Notes under the pieces: model-generated
Database searches by the model: none
Told to the model about the DNA's origin: nothing
Seen by the model: the letters and a program-made list of their open reading frames with translations, nothing else
Program-made: the position numbers and the translations under genes
Shown: in pieces, positions 1 through 11,518 of the stretch
How positions within the stretch are numbered: position 1 is the first letter of the stretch
How the letters are laid out: each line of letters opens with the position of its first letter
Assembly: GCA_947569225.1 (NCBI GenBank)
Contig: CANORX010000017.1
Span: 1 to 11,518 of the forward strand
Length of the DNA: 11,518 nucleotides
Source: an uncultured Clostridia bacterium
Lineage (GTDB): Bacteria > Bacillota_I > Bacilli_A > RF39 > UBA660
Direction: 5' to 3'

Positions 1-45
1 ATGCCATTGATATAAATCCATTTTTTTTCACATTAGTCACATATT

Positions 46-74
46 ATTATAAGATGATTATATCATAATAAAAA
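46..74 (-). promoter_or_regulatory. Possible sigma-A promoter reading out of the left edge
   Basis: On the minus strand TTTTTA (69-74), a 17-base spacer and a perfect TATAAT (46-51) point toward the left edge. The -35 box is poor and overlaps the T-tract of the preceding terminator, so this is tentative. It would serve a minus-strand gene lying mostly outside the window. Confidence 0.3.
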
Positions 75-95
75 ACTTTTAGATAGTCTAAAAGT
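70..95 (-). terminator. Rho-independent terminator of the TPR-like gene
   Basis: A perfect 9-bp inverted repeat (ACTTTTAGA / TCTAAAAGT, 75-83 and 87-95) with a 3-base loop is followed on the minus strand by a run of T. It lies 12 bases after the stop codon of the 108-1100 gene. The stem is AT-rich but perfect. The plus-strand side is also T-rich, so it may work in both directions. Confidence 0.75.
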
Positions 96-107
96 CTTAT
101 TTTTATT

Positions 108-1100
108 TTAAGATAGTTTTAGTATGTTTTCATATTTTGTACTTACTATACTAGTTAGATTCATTTCATTCATTTTGTTTAAGATTTTAACAATACTTTT
201 TATTAGATAATAATTTTTTTCGTTTACTGCTTTGTTTACAAGGTTATCAATTTCACTAAGGTTTATGTCTATTTGTTCTTCGTTTTCTATGTTTGTAAGT
301 ATGTTTATTATAGTACTATATAAGTCTAGTTTTAGTAAATCTAATAATATACTCAGATATTCTATTTTGTGTTTATTTAAAAGATATCCTCTTATTAATG
401 TTTCTGCGGCTATATTATCTTGGTCTTTCAAGCATGTTTTTATTTTGGATAAAGTGTATGTTTTTTCTTCTGCTTGTTTCATTAGTTCAAGTAATAATGT
501 CAATGTGAAGTTATGCTTCCAATCATGGTCGGTTTTATAAAATTCTTTTAGTAAAGTAGCTGCTAAATTAAATTTATAATCTATTGCGGCTATTTTTACT
601 TCATATAATTTGTCTTCTTGACTGTTACTTGTGTCTATTCTATATTTGTATATATATTTTTCTACTATCTTTTGATAGTTTTCTGGTAATTCAATTATAC
701 AGCTTACTAAATATAGATAGAAGTATATGGTGTTTCCTCTTTTTTTTAATTTTTCATTAAAAAAGTTTAAGTATTCGTCCATATTTTTAAGTTTTACATT
801 GGCTAAGAATATTTGTAAGTCTAATTTTTGACTTTCATATCCTAGTTTTTTACATAGGTTATAGCATTTTAAAGCTTTATTATATTCTTTAGATACTATT
901 AAGCTTTTTCCATAATTAAATAGTTGTTCTAAGTAAGCGCGTTTTAAAATGTAGGCATATCCAAATTTTGATATTACCCCTTCTTTTAAAAAGTTTGATA
1001 TTTGTGATCCATTAAAATTTTTGATGATGATTTCTTCTGTTACTACTTCGTTATCTATGAATACACTAAAAAGACTTTTTAATTCTGTTTGTTTTATCAT
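108..1100 (-). CDS. TPR-like helical repeat protein, unknown function
   Basis: The 330-residue product has no signal peptide or membrane segment and should be cytoplasmic. I do not recognise a specific family. Residues about 1-55 look like a small winged-helix-like unit. From about residue 58 the protein is continuous paired helices; the stretch around 60-95 (LFNYGKSL, then EYNKALKCYNLCKKLGY) has the small/aromatic spacing of a tetratricopeptide repeat. This suggests a protein-binding scaffold, but no enzymatic motif is visible. The start is supported by a strong Shine-Dalgarno (AAGGGGAG, six to seven bases before ATG) and a promoter just upstream. It is monocistronic, with a promoter at 1133-1161 and a terminator at 70-95. 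The TPR assignment rests on pattern only; other alpha-solenoid types are possible. Confidence 0.75.
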   Translation of the reverse strand: MIKQTELKSLFSVFIDNEVVTEEIIIKNFNGSQISNFLKEGVISKFGYAYILKRAYLEQLFNYGKSLIVSKEYNKALKCYNLCKKLGYESQKLDLQIFLANVKLKNMDEYLNFFNEKLKKRGNTIYFYLYLVSCIIELPENYQKIVEKYIYKYRIDTSNSQEDKLYEVKIAAIDYKFNLAATLLKEFYKTDHDWKHNFTLTLLLELMKQAEEKTYTLSKIKTCLKDQDNIAAETLIRGYLLNKHKIEYLSILLDLLKLDLYSTIINILTNIENEEQIDINLSEIDNLVNKAVNEKNYYLIKSIVKILNKMNEMNLTSIVSTKYENILKLS

Positions 1101-1132
1101 ATTTTTCTCCCCTTTAATTTTTTACGTACTAT

Positions 1133-1161
1133 ATTTTATACTATATTTAGTTAAAAGTAAA
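1133..1161 (-). promoter_or_regulatory. Sigma-A promoter of the TPR-like gene
   Basis: TTTACT (1156-1161), a 17-base spacer and TAAAAT (1133-1138) on the minus strand, followed after about 20 bases by the GGGGAG ribosome-binding site (around 1107-1112). It lies downstream of the terminator at 1193-1222, so the TPR-like gene is insulated from the operon upstream. Confidence 0.6.
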
Positions 1162-1192
1162 GAGGAAATTGTTTTTTGTTAAAGTTTTCACT

Positions 1193-1222
1193 AAAAAAAA
1201 TATTAGGCTAGTAACCTAATAT
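1193..1222 (-). terminator. Rho-independent terminator of the lon/spoVID/ysxE unit
   Basis: An 8-bp stem (1200-1207 with 1215-1222, core TATTAGG / CCTAATA) with a 7-base loop is followed on the minus strand by an uninterrupted run of T (complement of A at 1193-1199). It lies more than 200 bases past the end of the ysxE-like gene. RNA of that unit therefore crosses the whole plus-strand gene at 1257-1451 in antisense before ending here. On the plus strand the same hairpin would lie just upstream of that small gene. Confidence 0.8.
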
Positions 1223-1256
1223 GTAGTTATTCATATATTATTTATAGGTGATGGTT

Positions 1257-1451
1257 ATGAATAAATTAAATGAGATAAAGGATATGTATAAAAATAATAG
1301 AAGGTTATTTAATATTATTTTGCTCATAGTAAATGTTGTACTTATTTTTTGGCAGGCTATATTTTCTTTGATTTTACCAACAAGAGCAAATATTTTAATT
1401 CTTTTACTTCTTATAGGTTCTCTTGTTTATCAATTAGTTAAAAACCCCTGA
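1257..1451 (+). CDS. Small two-helix membrane protein, unknown
   Basis: The product is 64 residues: a basic amphipathic N-terminus (about 1-17, including KNNRR), then two hydrophobic segments at about 18-38 and 44-59 separated by a short LPTRAN turn. It should be an integral membrane hairpin protein. No family is recognised. In-frame GTG (1248) and ATG (1251) codons exist, but the Shine-Dalgarno AGGTGA (1246-1251) is correctly spaced only for ATG at 1257, so I use that start. It is the only plus-strand gene here and the only one ending in TGA. Its last 18 bases overlap the end of the ysxE-like gene tail to tail, and the whole gene lies inside the 3' untranslated RNA of the opposing operon. 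I find no convincing plus-strand promoter. Confidence 0.7.
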   Translation: MNKLNEIKDMYKNNRRLFNIILLIVNVVLIFWQAIFSLILPTRANILILLLLIGSLVYQLVKNP

Positions 1452-2285
1452 TTTAATTAGTTCGTTTGTTCTGTATGTGTAGTCTAACATTTCACTTACT
1501 TCTTTGACTTTATCATATTCTTTAGTATTTTCTTCAATTTTTTTGGGCATGCTTATCATTATGTAAAATAGTTTTATTTCTTCTTCTGTAAGTTTGAATG
1601 TTTCGTTATATGTTTTAAGTAATTCTGTGAAGTTTAGTTTTTTGTAATCACTTTTATAGAATTTATATATATCAAGTATAGGTGTATCAACCAAATAGTT
1701 ATCCCAACTTATTATTATATTATCTCCCCTGATAAAGTTTTCATTTTTTAAGTTGTTATGGACAATAGTTACTCTTTCTTTTGTTTTTTCACTTACTAGT
1801 TTATACCAAGCGTTTAGTTCTTTTTCAATGTATATAAGATTAGAGTTAATTATGGAGAAGTTTCTTGCTAGTAGATAGGAACTTGGTGACATGTATACTT
1901 CTCCATCTATTTTTTTTATTATGTTATTATAGTAATCTTTAAGATAGTCTACGTTATCTATTAATGTGTTGTATATTTCTTTGTATTTTTTTTTGCTTAC
2001 GTTTTTATAAAATGTTGTTTTGTAATGGAGGTCTGCTACTGTTTTTATGAATGTAGTGTCATTTAGGTCGTCTTCGTAAAATGGTAAGGTATCTTCGTAA
2101 TACCTATATTTTATTTCGTCTTTGGTTTCTTCTATTATTTTTGGATAGTTATTGAAGTCTCTAGTGTTTAGATAATCAAACAAACTGTTTAAATTCTTTC
2201 TTTTTGTTTTTACTACTATTTTTTCTTCGTCATTTTCATATATTTTGGCTTTTCCCCTGATAATAATTTTATTTATCTTCTTCAT
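1434..2285 (-). CDS. ysxE: YsxE-like / CotS-family spore coat kinase-fold protein
   Basis: The 283-residue protein resembles the aminoglycoside/choline-kinase fold family that includes the spore coat proteins CotS and YsxE. Visible landmarks are ADLHYKTTFYK (84-94), the LH..T element of the family; a Brenner-type loop HNNLKNEN (176-183); and a metal-loop-like ISWDNYLVDTPILDIYKF (192-209). The catalytic Asp of the usual H.D....N loop is Asn178 here, so it may be a pseudokinase, as many coat-associated members appear to be. It directly follows the spoVID-like gene and overlaps it by 17 bases, matching the spoVID-ysxE order of Bacillus. I see no good Shine-Dalgarno before the ATG, which suggests translational coupling. 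The likely role is assembly of the spore coat on the forespore surface. The assignment relies on motifs plus neighbourhood. Confidence 0.7.
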   Translation of the reverse strand: MKKINKIIIRGKAKIYENDEEKIVVKTKRKNLNSLFDYLNTRDFNNYPKIIEETKDEIKYRYYEDTLPFYEDDLNDTTFIKTVADLHYKTTFYKNVSKKKYKEIYNTLIDNVDYLKDYYNNIIKKIDGEVYMSPSSYLLARNFSIINSNLIYIEKELNAWYKLVSEKTKERVTIVHNNLKNENFIRGDNIIISWDNYLVDTPILDIYKFYKSDYKKLNFTELLKTYNETFKLTEEEIKLFYIMISMPKKIEENTKEYDKVKEVSEMLDYTYRTNELIKSGVFN

Positions 2286-3015
2286 TTAAATTATTTATAA
2301 ATGGTATTACTATTTTGTCTCCGATGTTTATGTTTTCTAGGTTGTTGTATTCGTTAAGTGTATCTAAAGTAACATTATATTTTATTGCTATGCTTTCTAT
2401 TGTGTCTTCTTCTCTCATTATGTAAACTTTGTATTTATAAAATGATTCATCTTTTGTCATTCCACTTATTATACTGTTTATGCTAGCTTCTGCTTCTTTT
2501 TTGTCTATGATGTTTATTGTTTCTTCTTTTATTTCTTCTTTTTCTTCTTCTATCATAAGTTCATTATGGAAGGCAGTATCTTCTGTTTCAGGTATGTTTT
2601 CTAGTATTTCTTCAACTGACTCCATTATTTCCTCCTCACTTTCTTTTTCTGTAGGTTCTTCTAGTGTTTCTTCTACATTTAGAAATTCTTCTACTTCTAT
2701 TTCATGGTAGTCTAGGTTTAAAGCCATTTTTAAATGTAATATGTCTTTTTCGACTTCATAGTTAAAGTCTTTTATTGTTAGGTTTATTGAACTTTTGTCT
2801 ATTAGACTTGAAAGCGCGATTGAAAATGGGATTGTGAACATGAAGTCTTCTCTTTCTATTGATGATTTTGTTATTTTGTATTCTCCACTTATGTCAAAGT
2901 ATCCTTCTATGACATCGTCTAGTATTTTGTAATCATGGGTTAGTGATATGTCTGTTATTTCTGATATCATAGTTTTCATGATGCAATCCTTTTTAAATTC
3001 TATTAATTGATTCAT
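2269..3015 (-). CDS. spoVID: SpoVID-like spore coat morphogenetic protein with LysM
   Basis: The 248-residue protein is built like SpoVID. The N-terminal beta-rich domain is at about 15-105; DDVIEGYFDISGEYK (33-47), a TIPFSIAL strand (61-68) and INLTIKDFNYEV (77-88) match the SpoVID/SPOCS pattern as I recall it from Bacillus. A strongly acidic linker is at about 106-170. A single C-terminal LysM is at about 194-240 (YIMREEDTIESIAIKYNV ... INIGDKIVIPF). In Bacillus SpoVID anchors the coat around the forespore together with SpoIVA and SafA, and its LysM reads peptidoglycan precursors. This version is less than half the length of the Bacillus protein, mainly in the linker. The ATG is set by AAAGGAGTG (3023-3031). 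That site sits inside a hairpin and behind a sigma-E-like promoter. The next gene is ysxE-like. Confidence 0.8.
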   Translation of the reverse strand: MNQLIEFKKDCIMKTMISEITDISLTHDYKILDDVIEGYFDISGEYKITKSSIEREDFMFTIPFSIALSSLIDKSSINLTIKDFNYEVEKDILHLKMALNLDYHEIEVEEFLNVEETLEEPTEKESEEEIMESVEEILENIPETEDTAFHNELMIEEEKEEIKEETINIIDKKEAEASINSIISGMTKDESFYKYKVYIMREEDTIESIAIKYNVTLDTLNEYNNLENINIGDKIVIPFINNLNEEDK

Positions 3016-3021
3016 ATTAAA

Positions 3022-3057
3022 ACACTCCTTTCATGCTTAATTGTATGAAAAGAGTGT
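3022..3057 (-). promoter_or_regulatory. Hairpin masking the spoVID ribosome-binding site
   Basis: A 13-bp inverted repeat with one G-T wobble (3022-3034 with 3045-3057) has a 10-base loop. The downstream arm on the minus strand contains the entire AAAGGAGTG Shine-Dalgarno of the spoVID-like gene, and TTTT follows it. In RNA read through from lon this could act as a weak intrinsic terminator and as a translation block. It starts six bases after the stop codon of the 85-codon gene. Confidence 0.7.
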
Positions 3058-3068
3058 GTTTGTTATGC
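3040..3068 (-). promoter_or_regulatory. Sigma-E-like sporulation promoter of spoVID-ysxE
   Basis: On the minus strand GCATAAC (3062-3068), a 14-base spacer and CATACAAT (3040-3047) match the mother-cell sigma-E pattern (-35 near GMATATT, about 14 bases, -10 CATACA.T). The -10 box is complete and five of seven -35 bases agree. RNA would start near 3033, inside the hairpin of the previous entry. Transcription of a SpoVID-like gene by sigma-E agrees with its known timing in Bacillus. Confidence 0.6.
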
Positions 3069-3320
3069 GACTTTTTTTAATGTGTGCGTGTTTTCTTTAC
3101 TTATGTTTATGTAGTTGTTATTTTTTAGTTCTTCTAATAGTTTGTCTTTTAATTGTCCTAATTCTTCTAATTTAATTTGTGTTTTGAATTCGTCATTTAG
3201 TATAGCATATGTTCTTACATGTGGATGAATGTCTGAGCCTTGATAGATTTCATATGCTAATGTTTGTATTTCTCCTTCGTAAAGCATTTCAATTAGTTTT
3301 GTTTGTTTACCTTTTACCAT
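3063..3320 (-). CDS. Unknown 85-residue protein coupled to lon
   Basis: The small, soluble, charged product has no signal or membrane segment. Residues about 5-50 look like a mixed alpha/beta unit (KLIEMLYEGEIQTLAYEIYQ, then HVRTYAILNDEF). A lysine/glutamate-rich helix follows at about 51-68. I do not recognise a family. The ATG overlaps the end of lon by 14 bases and is preceded by GGGGAGAT at good spacing, so it is probably translated with lon from the same RNA. The tight coupling suggests a link to Lon, such as an adaptor or co-regulated partner, but nothing in the sequence shows this directly. The Bacillus neighbour of lon, the GTPase ysxC, is absent at this position. Confidence 0.7.
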   Translation of the reverse strand: MVKGKQTKLIEMLYEGEIQTLAYEIYQGSDIHPHVRTYAILNDEFKTQIKLEELGQLKDKLLEELKNNNYINISKENTHTLKKVA

Positions 3321-5646
3321 TTTTTACATCTCCCCATATGTCTTGATAGATTTCTTTGTAATTGCTCACCTGTATAAATTGTACTTTGTTTTGTATGTCT
3401 TTGTCAAGTTTAAATATGTCTCTTTTGTTATATTTTGATACATATATTTTGTTTATTCCTTCTCTTATTGCCGCTAGGGATTTTTCTCTTAGGCCACCTA
3501 TTGGTAATATATCACCTAATAGAGTTATTTCTCCTGTCATTGATATGTTACTTGGTATTCCTTTGTTTAGTAAGTGGCTTAGTATTGTAGTCGTAATTAT
3601 TATTCCTGCTGAAGGGCCGTCTTTGGGTATAGCTCCTTCTCTAAAGTTAATGTGGAATGTTTTGTTTAAGTTTTCTTTTTTTATTTTAAAGTATGTTTGA
3701 TTAGCTTTTATGTAACTAAGGGCTATTTTTATACTTTCTTCTATTACTTCTCCTAAGGAGCCTGAGGTGATGAATTCTTCTTTTCCTTCATAACTTGTTA
3801 CTTCTATTTCTAATATTTCTCCACCATATGGAGTGTATGCTAAACCTTTTGCGTAGCCTTTTTGTTTACTAAATGTTTTTATGTCTTTTGGATATTTTTC
3901 ATATCCTAAGTATTCTATTATGTTTTCTTCATCTATTATTATTTCTTCTATTTTTTTGTTTTCTTTTTTGTGTTTTAAGATTATTTTTCTTATTATTTTA
4001 TTTATTAGTCTGTCTAGGTCTCTTACTCCACTTTCTTTGGTGTATGAGTCTATTATTTTGTTTAGTGCACCACTTGTGAATGTTATGTTTGCATCTTCTA
4101 ATCCGTTTTTGTTTTTTGCGTTTGGGATAAGATATTCTAAGGCAATTATGGCTTTTTCATAGGGAAGATATGATTCTACTTCTATTATTTCTAGTCTGTC
4201 TAATAATACATAAGGTATTAGGTTTTTGTCGTTTGCTGTTATTATCCATGTTACATTACTTAAGTCTACGTTTTCTTCTATGTATGCGTCTACAAATTCT
4301 TTGTTTGATTTTATGTCTAATAAGTCTAGTAGTGCATCTCTTGGGTCTCCTTTGTAGTCAGTTCCTAGTTTGTCTATTTCGTCTAATAGTATTAATGGGT
4401 TTTTACTTTTTGCTTTTATTAGGGCTTTTATTATTTTTCCTGGTTCGCTTCCAACATATGTTTTTCTGTGTCCTAGTAATTCTGCTGGGTCATTTATTCC
4501 GCCTAAGCTTATTTTTACGAAGTCTTTGTTTAGTGAGGCAGCTATGCTTTCTGCCATAGATGTTTTTCCTACTCCAGGAGGTCCTACTAAGCATATTATA
4601 GGACTGTTTATGTTTTTTCCACTGTCCATTACACTTATGTATTCTAGTATTCTTGTTTTTACTTCTTCTAATCCATAGTGTGTTTTGTTTAAATTTTCTT
4701 CTACTTCTTTTAAGTCTGTTGTTGTTTGTTTTAATATGCCCCATGGTATTGATATTAGATAGTCTATGTATGACATTATTACACCTATTTCTGGACTGCT
4801 TTCTGGTGTTAGTTCGTATCTTTTTAGTTCGTATTCTATTCTTTTTGTTATGCGAGGTGGTATTTTTCTTCCTTGTATTTGATTTGTTATTTTTTCTATG
4901 TATTCTGTTTTGTTATCTTTTTCTCCTAGTTCTTCTTTAATGGCTTTTATTTTTTCTTTTAGTATCATTTCTTTTTGCATTTCATCTATGTTTCTTTTTA
5001 GTGTTAGTTCTATTTTGCTTTCTATTTCTAGTATGGCAAGTTCTATATTGATTTCAGTTATTAGTTTTTTTGCTCTAGATTTTCTGTTTAAGTCTAACAT
5101 AAATGATTGCTTTTTTTCATTAGATAGAGGTATAAAGTTTGCTATGTAATCTGTTATTTTGTCTAAGTCTGTTATGTTTTTTATTTTACTTAATATAGCA
5201 TTTGATATATACGGGTTTATGCTTATGTATTTTTCTAATTCTTCTATTAGTTTTCTTAGTAGTGCTGTTTCTTCTATTTCGTTATATTCTTCTTTTGCAG
5301 CATCTATTATTATGCTTTGTAATACGTCTTTTTCGTTAGAGTAATTTATGTAGTTTAATACTTTTACACGTTTGATACCTGTTAGTATTATTCTTGTTTT
5401 TCCATTTGGAAGTTCTATGTTGCTTGTTACTTTTGCAACTACTCCTACTTTTGGTAAGTCTGTTGTGTCTGGGCTTTCTTCTAAGCCATTTATTGGTGTT
5501 ACTATTAGTACTTCACTATTATGATATAGTTTAGATATGTCTAATACTTTTTTTGTTATATCGTTATTTAATTCTATTCTAGCGTCTTCGTGAGGTAACA
5601 ATACGAGACCTTTAAGTAAAATTACTGGTAAGTTGTTATTTGTCAA
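3307..5646 (-). CDS. lon: ATP-dependent Lon protease (LonA type)
   Basis: Lon degrades misfolded and regulatory proteins in the cytoplasm using ATP. The 779 residues have the normal LonA layout and length. The N-terminal LAN substrate domain is at about 5-190 (starting PVILLKGLVLLPHE). A coiled helical region is at about 190-300. The AAA+ module follows, with Walker A GPPGVGKT (355-362), Walker B LILLDEID (418-425), sensor-1 ITAND (469-473) and an arginine-finger-type LLDR (481-484). The C-terminal protease has the catalytic pair Ser679 in KDGPSAG and Lys722 in GGLREKSLAA. No key residue is missing. The start codon is TTG (5644-5646), chosen because a near-ideal GGAGGTGA lies at correct spacing and the LAN domain begins at once. 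A sigma-A promoter precedes it. I see no CIRCE element or CtsR heptamer repeat, so the usual Bacillota heat-shock control is not evident. Confidence 0.97.
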   Translation of the reverse strand: MTNNNLPVILLKGLVLLPHEDARIELNNDITKKVLDISKLYHNSEVLIVTPINGLEESPDTTDLPKVGVVAKVTSNIELPNGKTRIILTGIKRVKVLNYINYSNEKDVLQSIIIDAAKEEYNEIEETALLRKLIEELEKYISINPYISNAILSKIKNITDLDKITDYIANFIPLSNEKKQSFMLDLNRKSRAKKLITEINIELAILEIESKIELTLKRNIDEMQKEMILKEKIKAIKEELGEKDNKTEYIEKITNQIQGRKIPPRITKRIEYELKRYELTPESSPEIGVIMSYIDYLISIPWGILKQTTTDLKEVEENLNKTHYGLEEVKTRILEYISVMDSGKNINSPIICLVGPPGVGKTSMAESIAASLNKDFVKISLGGINDPAELLGHRKTYVGSEPGKIIKALIKAKSKNPLILLDEIDKLGTDYKGDPRDALLDLLDIKSNKEFVDAYIEENVDLSNVTWIITANDKNLIPYVLLDRLEIIEVESYLPYEKAIIALEYLIPNAKNKNGLEDANITFTSGALNKIIDSYTKESGVRDLDRLINKIIRKIILKHKKENKKIEEIIIDEENIIEYLGYEKYPKDIKTFSKQKGYAKGLAYTPYGGEILEIEVTSYEGKEEFITSGSLGEVIEESIKIALSYIKANQTYFKIKKENLNKTFHINFREGAIPKDGPSAGIIITTTILSHLLNKGIPSNISMTGEITLLGDILPIGGLREKSLAAIREGINKIYVSKYNKRDIFKLDKDIQNKVQFIQVSNYKEIYQDIWGDVKNGKR

Positions 5647-5670
5647 TTTGTCACCTCCAATTGGCTTTTT

Positions 5671-5699
5671 ATTATAAGTATTTTATTCTCTCTTGTCCA
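5671..5699 (-). promoter_or_regulatory. Sigma-A promoter of lon
   Basis: TGGACA (5694-5699), a 17-base spacer and a perfect TATAAT (5671-5676) on the minus strand. The transcript would have a short leader, with the GGAGGTGA site beginning about ten bases after the start point. This is one of the best-matched promoters in the window. Confidence 0.75.
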
Positions 5700-5781
5700 C
5701 CTATTTTTGTGTTTTTTTTAATATATTTTTTAGTTGGACTTTTTATGATATTAAACAAAAATTTTGATTGTTAAATAATGG

Positions 5782-5824
5782 AAAAAGTCAAGTATAAAAT
5801 GTGTTATTTATCTCTTGACTTTTT
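5782..5824 (-). terminator. Terminator downstream of holA
   Basis: A perfect 11-bp inverted repeat (AAAAAGTCAAG at 5782-5792, CTTGACTTTTT at 5814-5824) with a 21-base loop lies 19 bases after the holA stop codon. The T-tract on the minus strand is part of the stem; the plus-strand side is also followed by T-rich sequence. It separates holA from the lon promoter. Confidence 0.65.
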
Positions 5825-5843
5825 GTTTTTTTTGTTTATTGTT

Positions 5844-6776
5844 TTATAATTCTAGGAAAAATGTTTCTAGTGAATTTGTTTTGTCAATTATTCCTGTTTT
5901 TATTTTTATGTCTATTTCACTTAGTTTGTATAGAAGTTCTAGTATTTTTTCTTTTTTGATGTTTCTGCTATTTTCTAATGATAGTTCTACTCTGTAGTGA
6001 TGTTCTTTTAAAGAGGCAGCTATTTTGTATTTATCCATACCTGTTTCATTAAGTACACGCGCTTGATACATGAGTCTAAATTGATTTGCTAGAAGTATTA
6101 ATATGACTGTGGGTTCTTCTTTTTCTTCAATTAGTTTTTTATATAAGGTGAAGGCTTCTTTTTTGTTTCTTTTTACTACGCTGTCAACTAGTTTGAATAT
6201 GTTGTTTTCTTCATATTTTGTTATGACTTTTTTTACGTCTTCTATGGTGATAATTTTGGTGTCATATTTATATATTTCTAGTTTTTCTAATTCACTGTTT
6301 ATGACTTTTGTGTTGTTTTTTAGCCTGTTTATGATTTCGTTTGTAGCGTTTTTGTCTATTTTGTATTCTTTGTTTTCAAAGTAGTTGTTTATGTAATTGT
6401 TTATGTTTTTTTCATCGGGTAATTTGAATTCTTTTATTGTAGCTTTTTCTTTTAGTGCTTTTACTAGTTTTTTTCTTTCATCTAGTTTGTCAGTGATTAT
6501 TTTAAAGATTAGTATTGCATTTTCGTTTGGTTTTTTTATGTAATTTTCAAAGCTAGTGTTTTCTAATGTGCTTTTACTAGTTAAGAAGTCTGATTCATTA
6601 ACTACAATTACTTTTTTGTTTCCAAACAGGTCAAAGTATCCTGCTTCTTCTATGACGTCTTCTATTTTACATTCGTTATAGTTGTATGTTATTTTGTCTT
6701 CTATTTTTTCTTTTTTTAGTATGTTTTCTATGTAGTTATTTATTTCTGTTTCGTTTTCTCCAAATAGTATATACAT
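5844..6776 (-). CDS. holA: DNA polymerase III subunit delta (clamp-loader wrench)
   Basis: HolA/YqeN opens the beta sliding clamp as part of the clamp loader in DNA replication. The 310 residues match the family's usual length. The N-terminal domain opens with MYILFGENET and carries EEAGYFDLFGNKKVIVV (about 44-60), the delta counterpart of the AAA+ core. The helical collar is at the C-terminus, with the diagnostic stretch NIFKLVDSVV ... EEPTVILILLANQFRLMYQAR (about 193-240). No Walker A is present, as expected, because delta does not bind ATP. The ATG is set by AGGTGAT four bases upstream. Its usual Bacillota neighbours comEC and rpsT are not adjacent; membrane and surface genes lie upstream and lon downstream. 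Promoters lie at 6821-6829 and 6898-6926 and a terminator at 5782-5824, so it is probably transcribed alone. Confidence 0.92.
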   Translation of the reverse strand: MYILFGENETEINNYIENILKKEKIEDKITYNYNECKIEDVIEEAGYFDLFGNKKVIVVNESDFLTSKSTLENTSFENYIKKPNENAILIFKIITDKLDERKKLVKALKEKATIKEFKLPDEKNINNYINNYFENKEYKIDKNATNEIINRLKNNTKVINSELEKLEIYKYDTKIITIEDVKKVITKYEENNIFKLVDSVVKRNKKEAFTLYKKLIEEKEEPTVILILLANQFRLMYQARVLNETGMDKYKIAASLKEHHYRVELSLENSRNIKKEKILELLYKLSEIDIKIKTGIIDKTNSLETFFLEL

Positions 6777-6820
6777 TTTATCACCTGTTATTCACTTCAT
6801 TTATTTCTTTTCTATTTTTA

Positions 6821-6829
6821 ATTGTAACA
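6821..6829 (-). promoter_or_regulatory. Extended -10 promoter proximal to holA
   Basis: TGTTACAAT on the minus strand is an extended -10 (TG, one base, TACAAT). No good -35 box is present at the right spacing. The transcript would carry a leader of about 40 bases before the holA ATG. Confidence 0.45.
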
Positions 6830-6897
6830 AATTTTTGACAAAAAGTCTTTATATTTTATTGTTAATATTTATTCTTATTGGTAATGGTAATAAAAGT

Positions 6898-6926
6898 ATA
6901 ATAGTATATTTTGATAATTATGACAA
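6898..6926 (-). promoter_or_regulatory. Distal sigma-A promoter of holA
   Basis: TTGTCA (6921-6926), a 17-base spacer and TATTAT (6898-6903) on the minus strand. It begins about 20 bases after the stop codon of the surface-protein gene, so holA may have two tandem promoters. Confidence 0.55.
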
Positions 6927-6946
6927 AAATCTATTTTTATTTCAAT

Positions 6947-7621
6947 TTATTTTTTATTTTGCATAAGTGTTGCGCCTATTAAAACAATAATAACTACTAC
7001 CATTACTATGATAATTAAGTTTATGTTTTTAGGGTTATTTACTGCTTCTTGTATGATAGAAGCGGTTAGAAAATATTTAGAGCAATGACTTATTTCAAAT
7101 TCGACATATCCGTTTTTTACAGGTATTTGACTATCTATGTATTCTATTTGAGTTTTGTCTTCGTTTAAGTAATATAAGTATAACATTTCTCCGTTTTTAT
7201 ATTTTTCTTCTACATTTATTTTTACTTTAGCTTTTGTAGGTAGTTTACCATGATGTTCGAATGAGACTATTAGACTATCTTTATTATTTACAATTTCGTT
7301 AAATTTGTTATCTTCTAAATTTGTAAGTAAGTCTAGTTTTAGATTCAAGTCAATTTCCATGTTATTTTTTAGCGCTTTATTAAGTTCTTCGTTTTTTTGA
7401 AATGTCCAACTATATGATAGTTTTTTTGCATTGTCTATTACTTCATATATGATTTCGTTTTCGGTTTCTGATTTAGTTATATTCATAAGTGTGTCACTTG
7501 CTAAATAGTTATTTTGTTTTTTTGTACTTTCATGAGTGTTTTTAAATATTATATATGTAATTAATAAACTGATGATAATTATTAGTATAGATATTACTAC
7601 TAAACTATAGTTTTTTTTCAT
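6947..7621 (-). CDS. Membrane-anchored surface protein with two terminal helices
   Basis: The 224-residue product has a lysine-led hydrophobic segment at about 6-26 (uncleaved anchor or signal), a polar domain at about 28-198 and a C-terminal membrane helix at about 201-219 followed by QNKK. This predicts a protein tethered at both ends with its middle part outside the cell. Near its end the outer domain has MLYLYYLNEDKTQIEYI and a terminal HCSKYFL element (about 179-185). In Gram-positive surface proteins similar patterns close beta-sandwich modules of unknown role. No enzyme motif is visible. It starts 16 bases after the CPBP-like gene and is almost certainly co-transcribed with it. Both genes share the identical 15 bases AATAATTAGAGGTGA as ribosome-binding context. 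The specific function is unknown. Confidence 0.75.
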   Translation of the reverse strand: MKKNYSLVVISILIIIISLLITYIIFKNTHESTKKQNNYLASDTLMNITKSETENEIIYEVIDNAKKLSYSWTFQKNEELNKALKNNMEIDLNLKLDLLTNLEDNKFNEIVNNKDSLIVSFEHHGKLPTKAKVKINVEEKYKNGEMLYLYYLNEDKTQIEYIDSQIPVKNGYVEFEISHCSKYFLTASIIQEAVNNPKNINLIIIVMVVVIIVLIGATLMQNKK

Positions 7622-7637
7622 AAGTCACCTCTAATTA

Positions 7638-8297
7638 TTATAACATAACTCCTAGTAGCGAAAATAAATTATAAAATAGATAAACTAAGCATGGGGTTAC
7701 AATGTTATCAGTCTTAATGTAAGACACATTTAATATTATACCCGCGAAGGCAAAAGGTATTATTGTACATAAGTCATTTATTGAACTAACTGTGTATCCT
7801 ACTTGGAATATTCCATATATTATTCCTGAAAATATTATAAAGAAATATTTGTTTTGTAATATGTCTTTAAATACTTTTCTAAATACTATTTGTTCAGTGA
7901 TTAGTGTGATTATAAATACATATACAATCATTATTATAAAGTTTTCTTTTATCATCGCGTCTATTATGCTAGAGTTTGTATATACAAAATCAGGATTTAT
8001 TATTCTAATAACTGCGGATACAGCGAAAAATGTTACAATTAATAAAGCAAAATACATTAGTGATTTGCCTAATATCGATAAAAAATTAGTCTTGAGTGCT
8101 TTTATATCTCTTATAAAGTCTTCTTTATACATAAGAATAAAGTATAAAAGTAATAAAAACATAAGTGCTAATCTTATTATTAATTCATTTGTGCTACTTT
8201 TTGTAATGCTTGGTAAAAAAATATCAATCACATATGGGACTAATATATATAGTAAAAAAACTCCTATTCCTTTTATTAATTTGTTATAACTTTTCAT
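7638..8297 (-). CDS. CPBP-family intramembrane protein, catalytic residues degenerate
   Basis: The 219-residue protein has about six to seven hydrophobic helices and the layout of CPBP (CAAX/Abi) intramembrane proteases. Motif 1, normally EE...R, is EQIVFR (Glu135, Gln136, Arg140). Motif 2, normally F...H, is YGIFQ with Gln165 in place of His. Motif 3, normally H...N, is YLFYN with Tyr206 for His and Asn210 kept. Both metal-binding histidines are therefore lost, and it is probably not an active protease. Relatives act in prenyl-protein processing, bacteriocin immunity or signalling; an inactive one could be a chaperone or immunity partner (inference). I start at ATG 8295-8297 because GAGGTGA precedes it at ideal spacing. 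An upstream in-frame TTG (8319-8321) would add eight residues, but GGGGG sits too close to it. It is first in a two-gene unit with the surface protein, after an 11-codon leader ORF. Confidence 0.75.
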   Translation of the reverse strand: MKSYNKLIKGIGVFLLYILVPYVIDIFLPSITKSSTNELIIRLALMFLLLLYFILMYKEDFIRDIKALKTNFLSILGKSLMYFALLIVTFFAVSAVIRIINPDFVYTNSSIIDAMIKENFIIMIVYVFIITLITEQIVFRKVFKDILQNKYFFIIFSGIIYGIFQVGYTVSSINDLCTIIPFAFAGIILNVSYIKTDNIVTPCLVYLFYNLFSLLGVML

Positions 8298-8330
8298 TTT
8301 TTCACCTCTAATTATTTTCAAAACCCCCTT

Positions 8331-8354
8331 ATGGTTATTCTAAATTATAACCAT
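8331..8354 (-). promoter_or_regulatory. Hairpin between leader ORF and CPBP-like gene
   Basis: A perfect 8-bp inverted repeat (ATGGTTAT at 8331-8338, ATAACCAT at 8347-8354) with an 8-base loop. Its first arm on the minus strand covers the last codons and the stop of the 11-codon ORF. A ribosome finishing that ORF would therefore melt the hairpin. A GGGGG-TTTT stretch follows, which is not a classical terminator tail. Confidence 0.5.
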
Positions 8355-8380
8355 GGAAAATATTTTCTGAACCAACTCAT
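8345..8380 (-). CDS. 11-codon leader ORF MSWFRKYFPWL
   Basis: ATG at 8378-8380 is preceded by AAAGGTGGTGA at ideal spacing, which is as good a ribosome-binding site as any in the window. Ten further codons then end in TAA. The peptide has five aromatic residues (two Trp, two Phe, one Tyr), two adjacent basic residues and no acidic ones. It lies 47 bases before the CPBP-like ATG and downstream of a likely promoter, and its end overlaps a hairpin. It could be a regulatory leader peptide or a small membrane-active or signalling peptide. Translation is inferred only from the ribosome-binding site. Confidence 0.5.
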   Translation of the reverse strand: MSWFRKYFPWL

Positions 8381-8416
8381 TTTTTCACCACCTTTTATTC
8401 CCTAATTTATGTTTTG

Positions 8417-8425
8417 ATTATATCA
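8417..8425 (-). promoter_or_regulatory. Extended -10 promoter of the leader/CPBP/surface-protein unit
   Basis: TGATATAAT on the minus strand is a perfect extended -10 box, although the -35 region is weak. It begins 36 bases after the stop codon of the RnfC-like gene and about 37 bases before the ATG of the 11-codon ORF. Confidence 0.55.
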
Positions 8426-8461
8426 GTTAATTTTAGTAAAAGATATAGTTATTTTTAAACT

Positions 8462-9292
8462 TTACATTATGTTAACTGTTCTAATTGTTTCATCTAATAA
8501 GAAGTTTCCGTTTTCTATTTGTAATTCTCCATTTATTAATATTTTTGTGCTCATTAAGTTTAGGTATTCTAATATATCTTTTAGGTTTGAGTTTCTTTTT
8601 GTTTTTATTATATTAAGTGTGTTATTTGATATTATTGTTACATATATGTAATCTCGTTTGTTTCTGTTTTTTAGTAAGTCATATACGTCTATTACATCAT
8701 AGATTGTTATTGTTTTTTCGTTTTCGTGAGTTATTCCTTTAAATTCAACTTCTATGTTTGGATATGTTCCTAGATAGCTAAATATTGTTTGATAACTTAT
8801 GATGTCTCTTTTATCTAGTCTTATGCTTACTGTTATATCGTTATATGTGTTATCAATTATGTTAAGTGTTTCTAATATTTCTTTTATATTATCTTTTAAT
8901 AGGTATTCATCTTTGATGTCATATTTGTCGTCATATATTATTTCTAATACTAAGTATTTTGTTTCTCCCACTAAGTATCTTGTTTTTTCTATTATGTAAC
9001 TTTCTTCTAAATCGTATATGTCTTTGTTAGATATTATTTTGCTATGTGTTTTATCAATAAAATCATTTTCTATTATTAGTACATTTTTGGGTCCATTAAA
9101 ACTATATATACTGCTAAGTCCATATGCTTTTCCAGATACAGGTGAATATTGTTTTTTTCCAAAGTATTCTCCTATTTCATCGTTTTTATAAATCATGTTA
9201 TTATTTCTTAAGTTTAGTTTGTTTTTATCTTCATATGGTATGTATATATAATCATTTGTTAAAAAAATGTTTAATTCTTGACTACTTTTCAT
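8462..9292 (-). CDS. RnfC-like protein without redox motifs
   Basis: The 276-residue product follows the N-terminal and middle parts of RnfC. A barrel-sandwich/lipoyl-like unit comes first: YKNDEIGEYFGKKQYSPVSGKAYGL at about 35-59 in two halves, then VLIIEND (71-77). A segment follows that lines up with the RnfC ECEPY region but reads YDDKYD. A later IYDVIDVYDLL and SNLKDILEYL resemble the RnfC/SLBB pattern. The FMN/NADH glycine-rich loop is missing, there is not one cysteine, and the C-terminal ferredoxin domain is absent. It cannot carry the iron-sulfur clusters of RnfC and no other rnf gene is nearby, so the function is unknown. I start at ATG 9290-9292, which has AAGTGA upstream; an earlier in-frame ATG at 9317-9319 has no ribosome-binding site and overlaps a possible -10 box. 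It follows uvrC by 58 bases and may be co-transcribed with it. Confidence 0.65.
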   Translation of the reverse strand: MKSSQELNIFLTNDYIYIPYEDKNKLNLRNNNMIYKNDEIGEYFGKKQYSPVSGKAYGLSSIYSFNGPKNVLIIENDFIDKTHSKIISNKDIYDLEESYIIEKTRYLVGETKYLVLEIIYDDKYDIKDEYLLKDNIKEILETLNIIDNTYNDITVSIRLDKRDIISYQTIFSYLGTYPNIEVEFKGITHENEKTITIYDVIDVYDLLKNRNKRDYIYVTIISNNTLNIIKTKRNSNLKDILEYLNLMSTKILINGELQIENGNFLLDETIRTVNIM

Positions 9293-9307
9293 ATTCTTCA
9301 CTTCTTT

Positions 9308-9336
9308 ATTATATAACATTATGTTTTATTTTTAAA
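9308..9336 (-). promoter_or_regulatory. Possible promoter of the RnfC-like gene
   Basis: TTTAAA (9331-9336), a 17-base spacer and TATAAT (9308-9313) on the minus strand. The start point would fall almost on the AAGTGA site, giving a very short leader, so read-through from uvrC is an equal alternative. Confidence 0.3.
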
Positions 9337-9350
9337 TAGTTTATTATTAT

Positions 9351-11117
9351 TTATTTTTCTGATTTAAAGTTTTCTAAGTAAGTTTTTAGATTTTTTGCGA
9401 CATTTAGAGGTACTATGTTTGTTAGTTCTTCTATGCTAGCTTCATTCATTTTCTTTAGACTTCCAAATTTTTTTAGTAGTTCTTTTTTTCTAGTGTTTCC
9501 TATTCCTTCTATTTCGTCTAAGACACTTGATAAACTTCCTTTGCTTCTTATTTGTCTATGATAGTTTATTGTAAATCTATGTACTTCATCACTTATTCTG
9601 GTTAGTAGATAAAATACACTACTACGTTTGTTTATTTTGTATGATATGAGTGTGTCCCCATCTATTAATTCGCTTAGAGAGTGTTTGTCATCTTTCATAA
9701 GTCCGCAGACTTTTATGTTTAGGTTTAGGTCTGATAGTACACTGCGGCAAGCATTTATTTGGTTAATTCCTCCATCTACTAATATGAGATCTGGTATTCT
9801 TGTTTTATTTATTAGTACACTTTGATATCTTCTATATATTACTTCTTTCATTGATCCAACGTCATCGTTTTGATCTTTACTTATTTTGAATTTTCTATAG
9901 TCTTTTTTTGATGGGCTTCCATCTATAAATGTTACCATTCCACTTACTGTAAACGTACCAAATAAATTACTGTTGTCGAATGACTCTATGACGCTTAGGT
10001 TGTCCATTTTAAGTATATTACTTAGTTCTTTACAAGCATCGTAGTTTTTTTCGTTGTTTCGATATTCCAATTCTATGTTATTTTCTAAGTTTATTTTAGC
10101 GTTTGTTCCTGCAAGGTCAAATAAATGTCTTTTTTTACCTTTTTGTGTTGTTATTATTTTTGTTTCTATTACACTGTTTAGTAGGTCTATGTCTAGTATT
10201 TCAGGTACTATTACTTCTTTTGGTACTAAGTTTTTTTTGCTATAGAAGTTGACTATATAGTATTCTAGGGTTTCTTTTATGTCGTCTATTAATGGGAATA
10301 TATTTTTTTTGTTTCCTACAAGTTTTCCATTTCTTAGAAAAAATACTGCAATGCTTATGTATCCATTTTCATAGTAGTAGTTAAATATGTCTCTGTTAAT
10401 TCCATCATTTAGTTCTACTTTTTGTTTTTCAAATACTACTTTTATGTAGTCGAGTTCGTTTTTGAGTTCAAGTGCGATTTCGTAGTTTAGGTTCTCAGAG
10501 TTTATTTTTATTTTGTCAGTTATTTTGTTAATTAGTATGTCATCGTGCCCATTTAGTATTGATATTATTTCGTTTCGTAGGTAGGTGGTGTCTAAGTCTT
10601 TTTTTATGCAGTAACCTAAGCACTCACCTATGTGATAGTATAGACATTCTTTTTTAGGTGTTTTGTCACATTTTTTTAATGGGTATAGTCTGTTTATTAA
10701 GTTTACTAATCTTCTTGCTGCTTGTACATTTGGATAAGGACCGAAAAGCATTTTATTTTTTTTGTTTATGTTTATTTCTCTTTTTACGACTAAACTAGGA
10801 TGTTTTTCATTTTTAAATTCTATGTATGGATAGCTTTTGTCGTCTTTTAATAGTATGTTATATTTTGGGTCATATTTTTTTATTAGGTTTATTTCTAATA
10901 TGAATGCTTCTAGTTCGCTTCCTGTGATTATGTAGTCAAAGTCTATTATTTCGCTCACTAGTTTTTTTGTTTTGCCTGTTACTCGACCGTTAAAGTAACT
11001 TTTTAGTCTGTTTTTTAGTATCTTCGCTTTTCCTACATATATGACTATACCTTGGTTATTTTTCATTAGATAGCAACCAGGTAGTTTTGGTACTAGTGCT
11101 AGTTTTTCTTTTATCAT
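9351..11117 (-). CDS. uvrC: Excinuclease ABC subunit C
   Basis: UvrC makes the two incisions around bulky DNA lesions in nucleotide excision repair, after UvrA and UvrB have marked them. All parts are visible in 588 residues, a normal length. The GIY-YIG nuclease is at about 10-95 (PGCYLMKN, then IVIYVGKAKILKNRL). Four cysteines at 150, 158, 166 and 170 are placed as in the UvrC iron-sulfur cluster. The UVR/UvrB-binding helix pair is at about 195-230. The RNase H-like endonuclease has Asp381 in ESFDNSNLFG, Asp448 in LVDGG and His513 in DEVHRF. A helix-hairpin-helix is at about 533-555 (LDEIEGIGNTRKKELLKKFG). The ATG is set by AAAGGTGAT five bases upstream, and a promoter with an extended -10 precedes it. 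It appears intact. Confidence 0.97.
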   Translation of the reverse strand: MIKEKLALVPKLPGCYLMKNNQGIVIYVGKAKILKNRLKSYFNGRVTGKTKKLVSEIIDFDYIITGSELEAFILEINLIKKYDPKYNILLKDDKSYPYIEFKNEKHPSLVVKREININKKNKMLFGPYPNVQAARRLVNLINRLYPLKKCDKTPKKECLYYHIGECLGYCIKKDLDTTYLRNEIISILNGHDDILINKITDKIKINSENLNYEIALELKNELDYIKVVFEKQKVELNDGINRDIFNYYYENGYISIAVFFLRNGKLVGNKKNIFPLIDDIKETLEYYIVNFYSKKNLVPKEVIVPEILDIDLLNSVIETKIITTQKGKKRHLFDLAGTNAKINLENNIELEYRNNEKNYDACKELSNILKMDNLSVIESFDNSNLFGTFTVSGMVTFIDGSPSKKDYRKFKISKDQNDDVGSMKEVIYRRYQSVLINKTRIPDLILVDGGINQINACRSVLSDLNLNIKVCGLMKDDKHSLSELIDGDTLISYKINKRSSVFYLLTRISDEVHRFTINYHRQIRSKGSLSSVLDEIEGIGNTRKKELLKKFGSLKKMNEASIEELTNIVPLNVAKNLKTYLENFKSEK

Positions 11118-11238: not shown

Positions 11239-11518
11239 TTATAGATTTCTTAACTTTTCTAGTTTTCTTCTCATTCTTTCTCTTCTGTCTTCTTCAGTTG
11301 AATCTATTATTAATCCAGAGTTTTGATGTGATATCAGATTATCAGATTTCAGAGAAATTACTGGACGCACGGCATTCCCACCGTAGACGTTGCCGTAGTA
11401 CAACTGGCCAGGAAAACTAGAACCATTCACACCGAACACGTACGCGCTAGTCCCGCTGAAGCGATACGGACTCATTGTCCAATATCCATATGTTCTATTT
11501 GTTTTTAATACTTCTAAT
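11239..11518 (-). CDS. 3' end of a C-type-lectin/FGE-like protein, candidate DGR target
   Basis: Only the last 92 codons are in the window. The frame stays open through the right edge (reading ...RTYGYWTMSPYRF...), so the gene starts beyond 11518 and the ATG at 11473-11475 is internal. YWTMSPY, followed by a G/S/Y-rich stretch and GGNAVRPVISLKSD, is the closing signature of FGE/C-type-lectin-like and DUF6273-like domains of surface proteins. From memory, in AT-rich gut Bacilli such C-termini often follow a prepilin-type N-terminus; the N-terminus here is not visible. After the domain comes a highly charged tail of about 34 residues (TEEDRRERMRRKLEKLRNL). Codons in the domain are rich in C and G at the third position, and the tail returns to AT-rich usage. 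The role is probably binding or display at the cell surface. Confidence 0.7.
   Translation of the reverse strand, partial: LEVLKTNRTYGYWTMSPYRFSGTSAYVFGVNGSSFPGQLYYGNVYGGNAVRPVISLKSDNLISHQNSGLIIDSTEEDRRERMRRKLEKLRNL
11361..11470 (-). other. GC-rich, A-depleted island: candidate DGR variable region
   Basis: I count 62 G+C in these 110 bases (56%). On the coding strand A occurs only 17 times against 35 G, 31 T and 27 C, while surrounding genes are dominated by A and T. Many codons are of the NNC or NNG type (CGC, TTC, AGC, TAC, GGC, GTC, GCC). The island covers the part of the lectin-like domain between the conserved WTMSP and RPVISL motifs. Adenine-directed mutagenesis from a template repeat rich in AAC-type codons gives this signature. 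No template repeat, accessory gene or reverse transcriptase lies in the window. A recombined foreign cassette is the alternative. Confidence 0.5.

Follow-up and report, generated by a model that had tools for sequence, protein, structure and literature searches.

A variable region in an uncultured RF39 bacterium, very probably served by a diversity-generating retroelement with many dispersed template cassettes

In the usual description of diversity-generating retroelements (DGRs), a single template lies beside the reverse transcriptase (RT). According to the relevant part of PMC12875486, the canonical form, that of Bordetella phage BPP-1, consists of an RT, the Avd protein, one template repeat (TR) and one variable region (VR). 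In the sections of PMC6642488 devoted to more complex systems, 79.9% of the DGRs with several VRs possess one TR, a Stenotrophomonas DGR combines two TRs with six VRs, and an atypical DGR has 6 TRs and 91 pairs. A term search of the portions of the DGR literature consulted (PMC6642488, PMC8144416, PMC4891356, PMC10907252, PMC11792537 and PMC12875486) did not reveal any report of template cassettes occurring by the tens in dispersed arrays. Here, we report that positions 11363-11475 of the window, that is the whole stretch of 11,518 nucleotides analysed, are very probably the VR of one of several DGR targets, which would be served by an Avd-RT module and many dispersed template cassettes.

The initial annotation had pointed to a GC-rich island at the end of the window and this island is real. 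Positions 11361-11470 have 56.4% G+C against 26.5% for the whole window, and their coding strand (n = 110) contains 17 A, 27 C, 35 G and 31 T. When the window was scanned by segments of 110 bp, those of at least 50% G+C started exclusively at 11341-11386, and the maximum for segments starting at 1-11100 was 42.7%. The island was said to lie between the WTMSP and RPVISL motifs, and it is indeed flanked by WTMSP and VRPVISLK in a minus-strand frame which runs open into the contig end at 11518 (Table 1). The variable domain displays a C-type-lectin-like fold and the target protein may be located at the cell surface or at a pilus tip, as already proposed.

Table 1. Features of the target gene and of its variable region in the window.
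Feature	Position	Strand	Remarks
3' end of the target gene	11239..11517	-	open frame, 92 aa visible, N-terminal part beyond the contig end
DGR variable region (VR), ATGAGTCC ... GTGCGTCC, 113 bp	11363..11475	-	borders common to same-genome copies
5' constant edge ATGAGTCC (M-S-P)	11468..11475	-	n = 22 aligned copies
3' constant edge GTGCGTCCAGTAATTTCTCT, candidate initiation-of-mutagenic-homing site (IMH)	11351..11370	-	genes and cassettes of the own genome

Near-copies of the block, which the initial annotation had called for, were found: in the own genome (G000; 1.1 Mb, 193 contigs, 83% complete), 21 matches including the window copy were obtained. None of the assembled cassettes is a clean fit to the window VR, and the best identity is about 74%. 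The borders of the block were refined from these copies, with ATGAGTCC at 11475 and the end of CGTCC at 11363. Among the 22 aligned copies, the 5' edge is exact in 17, carries a one-base change in 3 and is absent from 2. The 3' edge is common to the genes and cassettes of the genome, with substitutions and small indels, and in one near-identical gene/cassette pair the ungapped identity stops just past CGTCCAG; this edge may function as IMH. Compared with its paralogue on contig C121, the window gene differs in 26 of 105 columns inside the VR and in 5 of 175 outside. A degraded third copy of the 3' end of the gene, with a VR-like remnant, is present on another contig (L020:1143-1340, G000:C15). 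An ordinary divergence of paralogues, or the horizontal acquisition of a GC-rich segment subject to diversifying selection, could account for the GC island, but hardly for the 5' edge or its one-base variant in 20 of 22 copies, for the unrelated flanks in the one pair examined, or for the adenine-specific pattern obtained with controls (see below), and we give this explanation almost no credit.

The own genome contains 16 silent cassettes, each of which associates a VR-like block with a conserved and covarying hairpin. The unit measures about 300-370 bp and consists of the block, between ATGAGTCC and CGTCC, followed by a spacer. Six cassettes lie on contig C83, downstream of a target gene that is open at the contig end, and an array of six others on contig C129. 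DNA matches to the cassettes were obtained in all eight genus-mates, with 1 to at least 45 cassettes per genome. The spacer motif gave 117 matches in the genus stretches (the one at L050:3221 is probably spurious) and the block could be extracted for 108 of them; the length of 105 of these blocks falls in one frame class, and the cassettes of the arrays examined lie outside long open frames. Third codon positions are C or T in 72-83% of cases in VRs and cassettes, the two gene bodies compared giving 40% and 46%. The leader motif GGATAATATT, with at most one mismatch, is present within 60 nt upstream of 67 of the 108 cassettes (2 after shuffling) and of none of the five G003 cassettes. Matches to the target-protein domain amount to 8 to 40 per genome, a match not always being a separate gene. 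Two open reading frames near cassettes deserve mention. The first, small and desulfoferrodoxin-like as named by eye, is found within a cassette array in two species (L013:3552-3920 and L045:7841-8227), so that the array position appears syntenic. The second is a prepilin-like ORF (GFTLIELLAVI; L017:724-1254, G000:C132) upstream of a silent cassette, and could be a truncated target.

In 38 aligned spacers, a shared hairpin of 9 pairs was identified, in which 97.0% of the cells are paired, whereas slid structures reach at most 62%. Changes on both sides of a pair were counted in 58 cells versus a shuffled mean of 19.4, and the count of pair types showed no excess over shuffles in the same 38 spacers. 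A covariance model was built from these spacers, to which six of the nine genus genomes contributed (all except G002, G004 and G008). With 45 candidates scored per genome, the cassettes recovered number 16 for the window's genome, 29 for G001, 6 for G003 and at least 45 for G006, and the non-contributing G002, G004 and G008 have 1, 3 and 1. The total for the genus is at least 109 hairpin cassettes; all nine genus genomes are matched by the model, against 1 of 108 other genomes. At three loci of other genera, outside the model (L189, L188 and L185), the hairpin immediately follows, on the 3' side, an A-rich block located upstream of an RT, with E values from 4.6e-5 to 0.008; weaker matches in other genera include two within coding-like DNA. 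By comparison of sequences, these cassettes possess the structured spacer RNA 3' of the TR that characterizes DGRs.

The direction of the changes was analyzed by taking, for each of 75 gene VRs from five genomes, the same-genome cassette of highest identity as template. Fifteen pairs were at least 80% identical (one in G000, three in G001, eight in G003, three in G005 and none in G007). In these pairs, 211 of 473 template A are changed (45%) versus 45 of 1150 other bases (4%), and 82% of the mismatches (211/256) are at A; in the reverse comparison, with the gene as template, the value is only 6%. Lowering the identity to 70% (37 pairs) leaves 63% of the mismatches at A, and the two G007 pairs found at this level change A in both directions. 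Two G003 genes are particularly informative when the first 8 columns are left out of the VR core: between L131-2141 and cassette L054-8545 there are 15 mismatches at A and none elsewhere, with one 3-base indel, and between L075+845 and cassette L054-8194 there are 16 at A and again none elsewhere, whereas each gene shows 3 to 13 non-A mismatches with the other five cassettes. Since the two cassettes each fit a different gene, this comparison of sequences indicates that at least two templates are at work in the same genome.

The same tendency is detected in the own genome. Between the C121 VR and cassette L014+3180, 13 of 29 A are changed versus 6 of 76 other bases (p = 4.5e-5), and the sum over seven VRs is 78/167 A versus 127/523 others (p = 6e-8), three of the seven showing no lean to A. 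For the window VR, the values are 10/21 A versus 17/84 others (p = 0.013) with L013-2703, tied nearest by identity, and 15/30 versus 13/75 with L017, which gives the clearest A-pattern (p = 0.001, uncorrected for the cassettes tried). Four related proteins of 813-814 aa (P0027, P0030, P0033 and P0034) have a nearly identical VR sequence; the domain therefore also occurs without visible variation. The argument from base composition made at the outset has to be modified. The cassettes of the genome are about as G+C-rich as the gene VRs (0.46 and 0.48, respectively), so high G+C by itself is no footprint of A loss; the part that stands is the A shortage, and the relevant sign is this shortage relative to the Asn-rich template cassettes, which contain, for example, an A fraction of 0.28-0.31 in five G003 cassettes.

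One G001 gene VR is identical at 133 of 134 positions to a silent cassette which is not Asn-rich, both flanks being unrelated; 1 of 30 A is changed in this pair, far below the 45% of the fifteen pairs above. In addition, cassettes whose spacers are 93-99% identical can have strongly different blocks (47 of 117 columns in one example), and among 42 similar cassette pairs, two are A-biased (10/11 and 7/7 differences at A) and 40 are not. Gene conversion from silent cassettes, as in pilS of Neisseria, proceeds without an RT. If homologous recombination alone carried array blocks into the expressed genes, as in vls of Borrelia, then the silent blocks that keep their frame, an identity limited to the block, the different blocks beside near-identical spacers and the 40 unbiased pairs would all be expected, but not the concentration of cassette-to-gene mismatches at template adenines, nor the DGR RT carried by the genus, nor the same hairpin 3' of A-rich blocks beside an RT in other genera. 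Gene conversion in place of an RT is thus improbable, and it may operate alongside the RT route.

A DGR-type RT is recognized by an IGxxxSQ-like motif 4 together with YxDD. Six of the eight genus-mates encode an orthologous DGR RT of 373-375 aa with GLPIGNMTSQ and YMDD, whose closest solved structure by profile (E = 2.1e-29) is 8ub7, which we take to be the BPP-1 DGR complex. In the two genomes examined for gene order, G001 and G003, an Avd-like protein, the RT and a MutS domain I-like protein follow one another; by hmmscan, the neighbours of the G001 RT were bAvd and MutS_I. The G001 Avd-like protein gave E values of 2.4e-6 with bAvd and 6e-8 with the NCBIfam model DivGenRetAVD, matches that span nearly the whole profile yet stay below the curated cut-offs, and inspection by eye shows a similar ORF next to the RT of G003 and of L184. 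With these proteins, the templates and the adenine-specific template-to-VR changes of the genus, and with the template-like cassettes of the own genome and the lean to adenine of their mismatches with the gene VRs, the DGR reading given to the island by the initial annotation is upheld.

Neither RT nor Avd was found in the own assembly (83% complete), the searches having no positive control within this genome. The truA gene, which flanks the RT in G001, had no match there either, and for the ABC gene adjoining the G001 RT the assembly gave matches of 23-25% identity and nothing closer. As these RT-flanking genes are also missing, the own RT locus is probably unassembled, suggesting an assembly gap. 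The window VR could also be the relic of a formerly active DGR whose RT was since lost by the species, and the failure to find RT and Avd, the absence of an assembled cassette more than about 74% identical to the window VR and the degraded copy on contig C15 would agree with such a loss. Given the missing truA and ABC genes, the match of the hairpin model to 16 cassettes of this genome and the frame kept by the extracted blocks, we regard a dead system as unlikely. A separate DGR on contig C2 of the assembly (L024, 9279-12435) has its own repeat pair, with 26 of 27 mismatches at A; its RT was set aside as the enzyme of the window VR because of this pair and of the phage-like contig, which may be a contaminant of the bin or a phage present in the community. 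Three related ORFs with ankyrin-like repeats by eye, the first cut by the contig end, lie beside a retron-like RT on contig C53 (L021, 2-3420).

An RT-profile scan of species genomes gave 138 relatives, and the 80 best loci were analysed further. Of these 80, 46 contain a repeat pair in which at least 80% of the mismatches fall at A, and with C, G or T in the place of A the numbers were 0, 2 and 2. In 44 of these 46 loci a single pair was detected, in L184 and L250 two pairs. In L184 (RT 67% identical), three tandem template-like cassettes lie between the VR gene and Avd-RT, and may resemble an early stage of the arrays. Among the pairs listed, none that is A-specific belongs to the RT loci of the genus (L178-L183), and the covariance model gave no hairpin cassette in these loci, two of which are short contigs.

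We therefore retain the DGR with dispersed templates for this genus of gut Bacilli. An Avd and RT module, probably encoded in the unassembled part of the genome, would reverse-transcribe template RNA, making errors at adenines, and the resulting cDNA would replace the VR in the last strands of the C-type-lectin-like domain. The templates would be the many silent cassettes, in tandem arrays at several loci, in place of the usual one TR beside the RT. The cassettes should then be transcribed and the system currently active, and the VR of the window itself would still be diversifying. The 133/134 identity and the near-identical spacers with different blocks suggest that the library may itself be rewritten and read back for reuse, by retrohoming or recombination. 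More tentatively, and with somewhat less confidence than doubt, the cassettes could be targets too: diversified A-poor blocks would be stored as templates of low mutability and later written back to lectin-like genes. If true, one RT-driven system would give the bacterium fresh mutation plus recall of earlier variants. With a dispersed library that serves several to about 40 target-domain matches in a genome of about 0.7-1.5 Mb, direct tests would become possible of how templates are chosen, how they evolve and whether past variants are stored, and the approximately 110 cassettes with a covarying hairpin form a natural set for the study of template recognition by Avd-RT.

By its structure and mutation pattern, the system appears to be a DGR, the template library being its unusual part. 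With the canonical DGR, as presented in the part of PMC12875486 cited above, it shares an RT with an IGNxxSQ-type motif and YMDD, an Avd-like protein, A-specific TR-to-VR changes, a structured spacer 3' of the TR and a lectin-like target. It differs by the large number of templates, arrayed at a distance from the RT, by its many targets and by the hairpin present within each cassette and not found in the genus RT loci. More than one TR and several targets are also features of the multi-TR/multi-VR DGRs covered by the sections of PMC6642488 consulted, whereas here up to at least 45 hairpin cassettes per genome are encountered, tandem and dispersed, many of them A-poor. What goes beyond multi-template DGRs is the 133/134 identity of a VR with a cassette and the near-identical spacers followed by different blocks. 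As in the antigenic variation by vls of Borrelia, in so far as the descriptions consulted go, silent arrays feed expressed genes, but unlike vls the arrays described here are RT-linked and adenine-specific and carry an RNA hairpin in their cassettes.
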